Below are positions 26,763-29,316 of a DNA stretch of 64,000 nt, piece after piece. The stretch lies in contig NZ_JAPNKC010000001.1 of assembly GCF_026626705.1 (NCBI RefSeq), positions 12,029,001 through 12,093,000 on the forward strand, given 5' to 3'. The position numbers and the translations under genes are program-made. The notes under the pieces are model-generated. The model worked only from the letters and a program-made list of their open reading frames with translations. It did not search any database and was not told the DNA's origin. Each line of letters starts with the position of its first letter. Position 1 is the first letter of the stretch. This DNA comes from Pyxidicoccus sp. MSG2 (lineage in GTDB: Bacteria > Myxococcota > Myxococcia > Myxococcales > Myxococcaceae).

Positions 26763-27581
26763 ATGAGCGACCCGATGAATCCGACGCCCGCAGGAACCTC
26801 GCCGACGCCGCCCTCGGAGCCTCCACGGGGCTCCCGGGCGAAGACGCTGGCCGTCGTCCTCCTGCTGGGCGGTCTGGCCCTGGTGGCCTCGTACTACGGA
26901 CTCCGGCGGCAGATTCGCGCGCCCGAGGTGGTCAGCGCGCCCGTGGTTGACGCGGGGCCCGCAGCGCCGCCGGTGGAAGAAGTGTCGCTGCCGGAGAGCG
27001 ATGGTCGCGTCCGGGATTTGATGGGCCGGCTTTCGACCGAGCCCGAGTTCGCGAAGTGGCTCCAGGAGAAGGACCTGGTCCGGCGCTTCACGGCGGCGGT
27101 GAACAACGTGGCCGAGGGCGCCAGCCCGCGGATGGTCCTGGGGTTCCTCGCTCCGGCCGGTGGTTTCGCGGTCTCCCAGGTCGACAGGGCGACGACGGTC
27201 ATCGACCCGAAGAGCTACGGGCGCTACGACACGGTGGCCCGGGTGTTCGGCTCGCTGGACGCGCAGGCCGCGGGCAGCGTGTACCGGGAGCTGAAGCCGC
27301 TGATTGACCAGGCCCACCGGGAGATCGCGCCGCCGGGCCAGCCTTTCGACAGGACGTTCAGCCAGGCCATCCAGCACCTGCTGGTGGTTCCGGTGCAGGA
27401 AGGGCCCGTGGAGGTGAAGCCGCAGGGCGCCCTCTACGCGTATGCCTCGCCGGAGCTGGAAGGCCTGAGCCGGGCCCAGAAGCACCTGCTGCGCATGGGG
27501 CCGGAGAACATGCGGACCATCCAGGCGAAGCTGCGCGAGCTGCAGAGTGCGCTGGGCCTGCCTCCGATGGCGGAGCGCTGA
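26763..27581 (+). CDS. DUF3014 single-pass membrane protein
   Basis: A 272-residue protein with a Pro-rich N-terminus, one membrane segment (about 31-46, AVVLLLGGLALVASYY) and a periplasmic DUF3014 domain (about 75-250). The domain is marked by NNVAEGASPRMVLGFLAP and SYGRYDTVARVFGSLD. Function unknown. GGAGG lies just before ATG 26763. It is convergent with the lipoprotein gene, with the GAACATTC array between. Confidence 0.78.
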   Translation: MSDPMNPTPAGTSPTPPSEPPRGSRAKTLAVVLLLGGLALVASYYGLRRQIRAPEVVSAPVVDAGPAAPPVEEVSLPESDGRVRDLMGRLSTEPEFAKWLQEKDLVRRFTAAVNNVAEGASPRMVLGFLAPAGGFAVSQVDRATTVIDPKSYGRYDTVARVFGSLDAQAAGSVYRELKPLIDQAHREIAPPGQPFDRTFSQAIQHLLVVPVQEGPVEVKPQGALYAYASPELEGLSRAQKHLLRMGPENMRTIQAKLRELQSALGLPPMAER

Positions 27582-27604
27582 ACGGCGGATTGCTGGCAGG
27601 GCGC

Positions 27605-27735
27605 CCAGGAACATTCCTGGAGGGAGCCCGGACGCGTCAAAGAACATTCTTTCGGGCAAAAGAACATTCTCCGGACCTGGAAGGGCGTCAAAGAACATTC
27701 TTTTGGGTTCATGGGCGCAGGAAGAACATTCCTGG
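27605..27735. repeat. Array of five GAACATTC pseudo-palindromes
   Basis: Five exact copies of GAACATTC lie at 27609, 27642, 27662, 27693 and 27724, all in the same orientation. The flanks extend the inverted symmetry differently in each copy: CCAGGAACATTCCTGG in copy 1 (seven-base arms around CA), AAAGAACATTCTTT in copies 2 and 4, shorter arms in copies 3 and 5. Start-to-start distances are 33, 20, 31 and 31 bases, close to whole helical turns. The array lies between two converging genes, so it is not an ordinary promoter operator. Copies 2 and 4 share a longer GCGTCAAAGAACATTCTTT block, suggesting duplication. Confidence 0.85.
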
Positions 27736-27757
27736 TGCCAGGAGCCGCACGGCCGGG

Positions 27758-28300
27758 CTACTTGCGTTTCTTCTTCTTGGCCGGCGGAGGCGGAGGTGCC
27801 GGCTTTTCCTTTTCGCCAGCGACCTGGAACGGGGCCCGGAGTTCTTCGACGTCGCGGCCCAGGGCGTCGGTGAAGCCCGAGCCGGTCTGGGCGTCGACGA
27901 CCAGCGTGTACTCGAAGCCCGTCTTCAGGGGCTGCGGCAGGTTGATGCGGTACACGAGCCCGGCATCGGATTCCTCGACGTCATCATCGGAGACCATGGC
28001 GCGCTCGGCCTCGTCGAAGAGCCGGACCCGGTAGTTCCGGAGGCCCACCGAGCTGCGCAATTCGAGCGCCGACGTGGGCTCGATCAGCGGCTTTTCATCC
28101 GGCGCGAGGGAGATCTCGGCCAGGCCTGCATCCGGGGACTGGTAGGTCAGCGAGAACCGGGCGGGCGGAGGCGCCGAGGGGACCTGGGCGGCCTCGGTGG
28201 TGCCGGCATCGGACGTCGCCGCCGGCTTGTCGGGGCAGCCAGCCAGCACGAGGGCGCCGCAGCAGGTGACGGCAGCCAGGCCGAATCGAAGGAAGCGCAT
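27758..28300 (-). CDS. Small lipoprotein
   Basis: A 180-residue lipoprotein with lipobox LAGC (Cys near 22), a Pro/Ala-rich spacer and a beta-rich domain (about 48-160) that may be Ig-like. The tail is Pro/Lys rich (PPPPPAKKKKRK). Function unknown. The start is ATG 28300; no good Shine-Dalgarno is visible. It converges on the DUF3014 gene. Confidence 0.78.
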   Translation of the reverse strand: MRFLRFGLAAVTCCGALVLAGCPDKPAATSDAGTTEAAQVPSAPPPARFSLTYQSPDAGLAEISLAPDEKPLIEPTSALELRSSVGLRNYRVRLFDEAERAMVSDDDVEESDAGLVYRINLPQPLKTGFEYTLVVDAQTGSGFTDALGRDVEELRAPFQVAGEKEKPAPPPPPAKKKKRK

Positions 28301-28623
28301 GGGCCGGTCACGGTATGCGCGTGAGCGGGCTCCGGAAAGCACGGAGTGCCGTGCAGGCAGGCGAGCCTCAGGCGAAGTGCCGGGCGTGGAACACGGCGGG
28401 CCAGAGGGCCGGGAACAGGCTCCAGAACGCGCCCGAACACCCCTGGTCTCCCTCTGTCGGAACGTCTGATAACATGCGTTATGTAAACTAAGCGCATGGG
28501 CAACCTGGGGTTCCAAATCCCGTGCTCCAGGCCGACTCCACGGGCCTTCCCCCGCCTCCAGAACCTCCGGAACGGAGCCGGCTCCGAGCCCCCGGTTCCG
28601 TCTCGCGAGCCGCTGCCAGCCGC
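28301..28623. other. Intergenic region with AT-rich palindrome
   Basis: This gap of 323 bases between two minus-strand genes holds no convincing gene. An AT-rich patch stands out from its GC-rich surroundings. ATAACATGCGTTAT (28469-28482) is a palindrome with five-base arms around ATGC. It overlaps a second imperfect inverted repeat (ATGCGTTA 28474-28481 and TAAGCGCAT 28489-28497). It could be an operator for the lipoprotein gene downstream on the minus strand. No good -35/-10 pair was found. Confidence 0.5.
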
Positions 28624-29316
28624 CTACCGCTTCACCTTGTAGCGGGCCCACAGCAGGTCGCCCTTGCGCCGCTCCACGGACAGCAGCTTGAGGTTCCGCG
28701 CCGGGCCCCTGCCAGCCTTCGCATCGAACAGCGACGGCGTTCCCACGCCCCCGTCCGCGACCGGCGCGAACAGGATGCTCAGTTCATCGACCAGGTCGGC
28801 GGCCAGGAACGAGCCGTTGATCTTCCCTCCGCCCTCGAGGAGCAGCGTCTTGATGCCGAACTCCTTCCGGAGCTTCTGGAGCACCCTCGGCAGGCTCAGG
28901 CGCTCCTTGCCGCCGAACACGTACGAGACGCCACGCGCCTGCAGGAACGCCAGGTAGTCATCCGATACCGCCTCGGTCAGCACCGTGATGACGTGCTCCT
29001 CGTCAATCGACGCCGACTTCCAGGTGAGCTTGCCGGACGGGTCCAGTGCAATCGCGTAGGACTCCGCGTCCCTGCGCGCGATGAAGTCCGTCCGAGGAAT
29101 CGGCTGCCCGCCCTTGCGCCTGGGGACCTTCGACTTCCCAGCGTACGGCTCCATGGAGACCCGGCCGATGATCCACCCATCCGCGTCGAAGATCTCGGCC
29201 GTCTGCTCATATTCGGCGTACGCGGCCTTCGGCAGCTCCCAGCCCTTCACCACGATGCGCCCGTCCACCGAGGGCACCATGTGGCAGATCACATAGGGTC
29301 GCTTCGTCATCTCCAT
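28624..29316 (-). CDS. RibD C-terminal/dihydrofolate reductase-like reductase
   Basis: A 230-residue NADPH-dependent reductase of the RibD-C/DHFR-like superfamily. The N-terminal strand RPYVICHMVPSVDGRI and the later TLLLEGGGKINGSFL and LVDELSILFAPV are typical. The start is ATG 29316, with GGAGGAC about eight bases upstream; an in-frame ATG at 29358 would skip that site. Stand-alone members do not necessarily work in riboflavin synthesis. No rib gene is near, so the substrate is unknown. Confidence 0.82.
   Translation of the reverse strand: MEMTKRPYVICHMVPSVDGRIVVKGWELPKAAYAEYEQTAEIFDADGWIIGRVSMEPYAGKSKVPRRKGGQPIPRTDFIARRDAESYAIALDPSGKLTWKSASIDEEHVITVLTEAVSDDYLAFLQARGVSYVFGGKERLSLPRVLQKLRKEFGIKTLLLEGGGKINGSFLAADLVDELSILFAPVADGGVGTPSLFDAKAGRGPARNLKLLSVERRKGDLLWARYKVKR

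Follow-up and report, generated by a model that had tools for sequence, protein, structure and literature searches.

A helically phased array of GAAYRTTC sites beside dif at the replication terminus of Pyxidicoccus sp. MSG2 and relatives

Array locus and flanking genes

Within the window analysed here, a 64,000-nucleotide stretch of the main contig of Pyxidicoccus sp. MSG2 (genome G000), five copies of the 8-mer GAACATTC lie in the 176-bp gap between a DUF3014 membrane protein gene and a small lipoprotein-like gene, followed by a dif site (Table 1). The array spans 123 bp, all five GAACATTC copies being on the same (+) strand, and comes within 26-27 bp of each stop codon. A sequence-only reading of this DNA had reported five identical cores in 123 bases with spacings of 33, 20, 31 and 31 bases between converging genes, and both statements were borne out, the two genes ending at 27581 (+) and 27758 (-), respectively. 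Against an expectation of 0.61 copies, five GAACATTC were observed in the window, a number reached in none of 100 shuffles, and no other 8-mer of the window has five copies inside 123 bp.

Table 1. Features of the array locus, in window positions.
Feature	Position	Strand	Sequence context or basis
DUF3014 membrane protein gene, left neighbour	26763..27581	+	PF11219, E 2.4e-49
Phased GAACATTC array, five sites	27605..27735	.	window sequence and same-place arrays in relatives
Site 1	27609..27616	+	CCAG-GAACATTC-CTGG
Site 2	27642..27649	+	AAA-GAACATTC-TTT; +33 from site 1
Site 3	27662..27669	+	AAAA-GAACATTC-TCC; +20 from site 2
Site 4	27693..27700	+	AAA-GAACATTC-TTTT; +31 from site 3
Site 5	27724..27731	+	GGAA-GAACATTC-CTGG; +31 from site 4
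Right-hand neighbour, a small lipoprotein-like gene separating array from dif	27758..28300	-	no Pfam family at E 0.001
dif, XerCD chromosome dimer resolution site	28462..28489	+	26/28 identical to M. xanthus DK1622 dif

The DUF3014 gene was found in all 27 genomes of the genus, and the lipoprotein-like gene, whose product matches no Pfam family at E 0.001, was matched at all 27 loci examined, G010 and G016 included. A single Rfam match in window positions 27000-29000 scored 20.3 bits against a 50-bit cut-off; with no family above cut-off in that interval, and with sites in both orientations, an RNA feature was rejected. Also rejected were a phage origin, for which there was no phage match, and a plasmid origin, for which there were two weak plasmid matches only (E 0.2, 19% of the query).

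Distribution of the array among relatives

Arrays of four to six GAAYRTTC sites, spanning 80-198 bp, were identified near the same two genes in 11 of the 27 genus genomes, the source included. They fall into two lineages, the first comprising G000, G022, G002, G026, G020, G011 and G019 and the second G003, G005, G004 and G025; in G011 and G019 the array is set off from the DUF3014 gene by additional DNA. Scored within 420 bp after DUF3014, the other 16 genomes show either no array or a decayed one, among them nine of 9.0-9.5 Mb from an M. xanthus-like group. What look like decayed copies, judged by sequence, occur in G012, and in G010 and G016, where another gene follows DUF3014, no GAAYRTTC and a single one, respectively, were found in 13-14 kb of sequence surrounding the locus. 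Since 16 of the 27 genomes lack an intact array, it is dispensable. In a DUF3014 tree, 9 of whose 27 inner branches are poorly supported, arrays appear in two places, a pattern that would fit either two gains or one gain followed by several losses. Genomes with the array measure 10.8-13.5 Mb, as against 9.0-10.4 Mb for 15 of the 16 others (G012 has 11.4 Mb), an association with genome size that tracks phylogeny and is only a hint.

Beyond the genus, a three-site pattern, which misses the arrays of G019 and G025 that were found otherwise, matched in 10 of the 179 genomes from the phylum, nine of them members of the genus, with the match at the array locus, and the tenth G088. Upon inspection the latter match, from another genus, was rejected as an unrelated AT-rich tandem repeat, with GAATATTCTAGAAGTA-like units of 16 bp (G088:C69:243-346). 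Site pairs in G042 and G027 were likewise set aside, as they lie at a different locus where the neighbouring genes are unmatched.

Uniqueness of the array and a dispersed palindrome

On its own GAACATTC is not rare, with 99 copies in the 13.3-Mb genome; it is their close clustering in phase that stands out. The array is the sole place in the genomes of G003, G004, G005 and G025 with two GAAYRTTC 10-40 bp apart, a test of site pairs that leaves room for lone sites elsewhere. One further pair, with CG centres, was found in G019, and seven others (11-34 bp between sites) in G000, all with the GGAA/TTCC arms of a dispersed palindrome. Outside the array, GAAYRTTC occurs once in the 64-kb window (GAACGTTC) and zero to one times in each of five relatives, read over 60-100 kb.

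Beyond the array, the main contig has 93 GAACATTC copies, all of which were read, and 39 of them match this dispersed palindrome, GGAANGAAYRTTCNTTCC, of 18 bp, 13 of these 39 sitting in one recurring ORF context. The palindrome is often arranged in tandem with spacers specific to each array (for example at L129, L130, L104 and L118, and also in G022, G020 and G026). It has 136 copies in G000 (at least 13 of them in the recurring ORF context) and 155 in G022, and is absent from 11 of the 27 genus genomes. Its outer arms vary by locus and, by eye, are complementary in several cases (GCGGAA/TTCCGC, GTGGAA/TTCCAC); it may be either mobile or structural in nature. The recurring context, ggccgtcaccggaatGAACATTCcttcca, has 13 copies in long open frames (L090-L095, L117, L146, L147, L153, L154, L161 and L162) and is perhaps, at a guess, a conserved motif of multi-module enzymes; these thirteen copies inflate the 8-mer and 18-mer counts.

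Membership of the array in the dispersed GGAANGAACRTTCNTTCC repeat of related genomes was rejected, since both GGAA/TTCC arms occur in none of 57 array sites and the 18-mer has no copy in the array-bearing genomes G003, G004, G005 and G025. As to the earlier suggestion of a small mobile repeat family, the genome does have a dispersed family, but a different one, and it is unphased in relatives.

Filling as it does the 176-bp gap between two 3' ends, 26-27 bp from each stop codon, the array might be thought to act as a roadblock or protein-assisted terminator separating the two converging transcripts. Converging pairs are common, yet no second such cluster was found per genome, and in 16 of 27 genomes the same two genes get by with no intact array between them, so that we regard this explanation as improbable. 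A generic insulating site, also raised by the sequence-only reading, is a poor fit for the same lack of a second cluster in the searches.

Conservation of core and arms

The 57 cores of the 11 arrays comprise 38 GAACATTC, 15 GAATGTTC and 4 GAATATTC, within a site consensus of approximately CAAGAAYRTTCTTG. When any two central bases were allowed in the search, the array centres were CA, TG or TA only; a CG centre is absent from the arrays, though likely in such a GC-rich genome. Cores in lineage 1 point mostly one way (30 CA, 3 TG, 2 TA), whereas those of lineage 2 are mixed (8 CA, 12 TG, 2 TA). The missing CG centre and the free orientation would accord with a dimer that is symmetrical and requires flexibility at the centre of its site.

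Pairwise identities were counted over ungapped aligned bases. For the two trustworthy pairs, cores matched at 39/40 positions against 95/127 in spacers (G000/G022) and at 44/48 against 100/133 (G003/G005). The remaining pairs, which are affected by site turnover, many gaps and an aligner biased to core matches, gave 41/43 against 80/139 (G002/G026), 46/55 against 83/132 (G004/G025) and 28/34 against 58/126 (G020/G002), while in G011/G019 the cores (40/69) were hardly above the spacers (58/121). In close pairs, then, the cores persist as the spacers drift. The sequence-only reading had taken loss in close relatives without constraint as grounds for abandoning its proposal; loss is indeed frequent, with 16 of 27 genomes lacking an intact array, but the surviving cores look constrained. 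A curved-DNA element, for its part, would presumably need no exact core.

Arms were earlier described as changing in a compensated way, such that symmetry rather than exact sequence is conserved. In the window, three of the five copies do have symmetrical arms (CCAG/CTGG, AAA/TTT and AAA/TTT). Across all 57 sites, however, shuffle tests placed arm symmetry weakly above chance at ±1 (p 0.01) and ±3 (p 0.014), with no excess at ±2 or at ±4 to ±8. The compensated arms thus hold for part of the window array, and the broader claim is mostly wrong: it is the 8-bp core that is kept, arm symmetry being weak.

Helical phasing of the sites

Phasing was assessed over the complete set of 46 spacings from the 11 arrays. 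The best period was 10.5 bp, with 45 of the 46 spacings no more than 2.5 bp from a multiple, as compared with a null mean of 23.5 and a maximum of 37 over 20,000 simulations; the lone off-phase spacing is one of 26 bp in G026. Because related genomes do not provide independent spacings, distinct values were also counted once each, giving p 0.0013 for lineage 1, 0.0005 for lineage 2 and 0.00075 overall. The flanks differ between the two lineages, and G005 has one site more than G003 through an 11-bp insertion that retains the phase. The helical phasing first noticed in a single array is therefore well supported, with a 10.5-bp period in 11 genomes and in two lineages tested separately.

At 10.5 bp the mean cosine of the arrays is 0.793. 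As a control, the dispersed palindrome in G022 and G011 was without a 10.5-bp phase, with a mean cosine of -0.225 over 33 spacings among the matches listed and 9 of the 33 no more than 2.5 bp from a multiple. For 44 spacings of the same palindrome at the loci read in G000, the mean cosine was 0.30 (0.375 for distinct values), 27 of the 44 coming from one locus with units of 63 and 66 bp that was read in two overlapping stretches. This milder tendency indicates that some phasing can arise otherwise.

These comparisons bear on the alternative of a neutral tandem repeat maintained by slippage and shared descent. Copies within a genome share common flanks (GGGCG..CAAA in lineage 1, and two identical 20-bp units in G026), and the array is absent or decayed in 16 of the 27 genomes, both of which speak for such a repeat. 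Set against this are the 10.5-bp phase shared by two lineages with differing unit sequences, the occurrence of copies in both orientations, the conservation of cores in close pairs, and the lack of phase in the control, namely the dispersed repeat in G022 and G011. We consider a neutral origin improbable, slightly more so than a transcriptional roadblock.

Position at the replication terminus

The dif site of the window, ACGTCTGATAACATGCGTTATGTAAACT, lies 731 bp to the right of the array. Its 6-bp centre and last 11 bases are identical to those of the M. xanthus DK1622 dif as printed by Carnoy and Roten, AGGTCCGATAACATGCGTTATGTAAACT (PMC2731167), and the features of a dif are present, namely a 28-bp site with two 11-bp arms and a 6-bp centre, found once per chromosome at the terminus. 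Allowing up to 2 mismatches, a single match was obtained in each of the 27 genus genomes; a limit of 3 added one weaker match in G000 and one in G025. A dif-like sequence with 3 mismatches, TATAACGTGGATTATGTAAACT, was also observed on the second replicon of G000 (147 kb; G000:C2:56887-56908). Across the window, the cumulative GC skew reaches its maximum at 28418, less than 50 bp from dif, and dnaA (C1:5417115-5418401) is 6.64 Mb from the array (C1:12056609), which by arithmetic is 50.3% of the 13.19-Mb chromosome (50.5% in G002). With dif 731 bp off, the skew peak nearby and dnaA half a chromosome away, the array is located in the replication terminus, beside dif.

In nine of the ten genomes with both elements on one contig, array and dif are 696-973 bp apart, the exception being G019, at 18.5 kb. 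In G019 some 18 kb of inserted DNA, its ORFs mostly on one strand (contig C67, approximately 18.9-36.6 kb; L233, L234), sits between the lipoprotein-like gene and dif, a placement suggestive of integration at dif; a PHROG search with seven of its ORFs matched no family. In G008 and G014, dif is 17-18 kb from the DUF3014 gene. Nearness to dif counts as one coincidence, of order 1e-4 per origin by arithmetic, with perhaps one or two origins.

We also scanned 3-kb dif loci (two of them shorter) for clustered 8-mers and gapped palindromes of up to 67% GC, using 30 of the 47 genomes of other genera with a dif match at 3 mismatches together with all 27 genus loci. No five-copy cluster was detected at the 30 dif loci of other genera. 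Outside the arrays no pattern reached five copies in 250 bp and a few reached four, as compared with four to six at array loci; a four-site array would thus not be conspicuous by count alone.

Given this proximity, the sites could represent accessory sequences for XerCD recombination at dif, akin to plasmid cer and psi. Phased protein sites are the way in which cer-type accessory DNA is wrapped, and such DNA has a fixed geometry and a fixed short distance to the recombination core. Here, conversely, the distance ranges over 696-973 bp in nine genomes and reaches 18.5 kb in G019, a gene intervenes, and 16 of the 27 genomes retain dif without an intact array. Among the explanations that we ranked, this one is the least probable.

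A replication fork barrier is the main rival to the reading that we prefer below. On this account, proteins bound to the array would stall forks and fix their fusion near dif, constituting a third trap besides Tus and RTP. The array's position between converging genes, near dif and the GC-skew flip, would suit such a role, as would its restriction among the 27 genomes to 11 of 10.8-13.5 Mb while 15 of the 16 others have at most 10.4 Mb, although genome size follows phylogeny. RTP, moreover, is described as likewise a dimer on adjacent half-sites (PMC10331603). The skew of relatives offers one further point in favour, from G019, where the peak is 0.7 kb from the array and dif 18.5 kb from it, but skew in that genome is confounded as a judge between the two by the inserted element with its one-sided ORFs. 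Elsewhere the peak is at dif rather than the array (less than 60 bp from dif and 0.7-0.9 kb from the array in G003 and G004), 0.2 kb past dif in G020, or about 9 kb from array and dif alike in G002. Tus and RTP sites are reported to be non-palindromic, polar and placed on flanks of dif (PMC6549158), whereas the array is near-palindromic and on one side, and its orientation, mostly uniform in lineage 1, is mixed in lineage 2. A fork barrier ranks second among the explanations, and we judge it unlikely.

A putative terminus-marking site

Location, clustering, phasing, core conservation and descent at one locus are observed features of the array, and the earlier suggestion of a nucleoid-organising or replication-related site is well supported by its place at dif, its 10.5-bp phase in 11 genomes and the retention of cores in close pairs. 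The explanation that we rank first, tentatively and at somewhat less than even chances, is that the array is a terminus-marking site for a putative DNA-binding protein whose likeliest task would be the organisation or tethering of the terminus. We infer that a protein binds the array; probably dimeric, it would recognise each GAAYRTTC site. Because the site centres lie whole helical turns apart, four to six dimers would sit on one face of the helix, presumably binding cooperatively and assembling, 0.7-1.0 kb from dif, into a single compact nucleoprotein complex. Such a complex would most likely serve to organise or tether the terminus, for example by holding dif at midcell for XerCD/FtsK or by keeping other chromosome machinery away, in the manner of MatP and ZapT elsewhere. 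Several considerations weaken a terminus-marking role, among them the lack of an intact array in 16 of 27 genomes and the turnover of sites in less close pairs. The terminus of M. xanthus, the nearest studied species, is described as relocating to midcell most likely passively (PMC3778016), in which case no tether is required there, and the sites of MatP and ZapT are scattered, unlike this single cluster.

It is possible, if somewhat less probable than the terminus-marking role itself, that a large-genome branch of myxobacteria has evolved a terminus system of its own, in which a single phased, operator-like cluster at dif and a dedicated protein form either a terminus centromere or a third independent fork trap. 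Among titles and abstracts of the open-access literature on these motifs, on intergenic repeats and on dif, terminus and segregation, no such array was described. Being only about 130 bp long, located at dif, and present in some but not all close relatives, the element lends itself to direct tests of its putative binder and its function.

Comparison with known terminus and segregation systems

Plasmid centromeres such as parC and tubC offer a structural parallel, being compact repeat arrays with helical spacing, one per replicon. In those systems partition genes adjoin the iterated sites; by contrast, no partition family was matched among the seven neighbouring proteins scanned here.

The MatP/matS system of enterobacteria and Vibrio resembles the array in that its sites are sequence-specific and restricted to the terminus region surrounding dif. 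MatP has been described as found only in enteric bacteria (PMC7188993), although another paper treats Vibrio (PMC4177673). The matS site, as described, is 13 bp long and present as 23 repeats over 800 kb in E. coli (PMC3330122), compared with four to six sites of another sequence in 80-198 bp here; scattered sites of this type were not found, with at most one GAAYRTTC outside the array in the window and in 60-100 kb of five relatives.

Tus/Ter and RTP/Ter also provide protein-bound terminus sites around dif, with RTP dimers on adjacent half-sites (PMC10331603), and the same source names as a fork-trap trait that the gene for the binder carries a binding site in its own promoter. These traps are reported to be limited to four clades (PMC6549158). 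Known Ter sites are polar, opposed and on both sides of dif, a layout that the array does not share, being one-sided in the genomes read and inconsistent in orientation between lineages.

ZapT of Caulobacter is a non-enterobacterial example of a DNA-binding protein linking terminus and divisome, but it is described at ten ChIP positions, mostly intragenic and without a consensus motif (PMC7188993). Within the myxobacteria, CdbA of M. xanthus occupies more than 500 sites chromosome-wide, characterised by a GC-rich direct repeat with a 4-bp gap (PMC7156744). Compared by eye with this worded motif description, the near-palindromic core of the array, which is not GC-rich and is clustered at one locus, was rejected as a CdbA site. 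CdbA is nevertheless alike in kind to the protein proposed here, as a nucleoid organiser described as having two DNA-binding regions one helical turn apart and as bending DNA.
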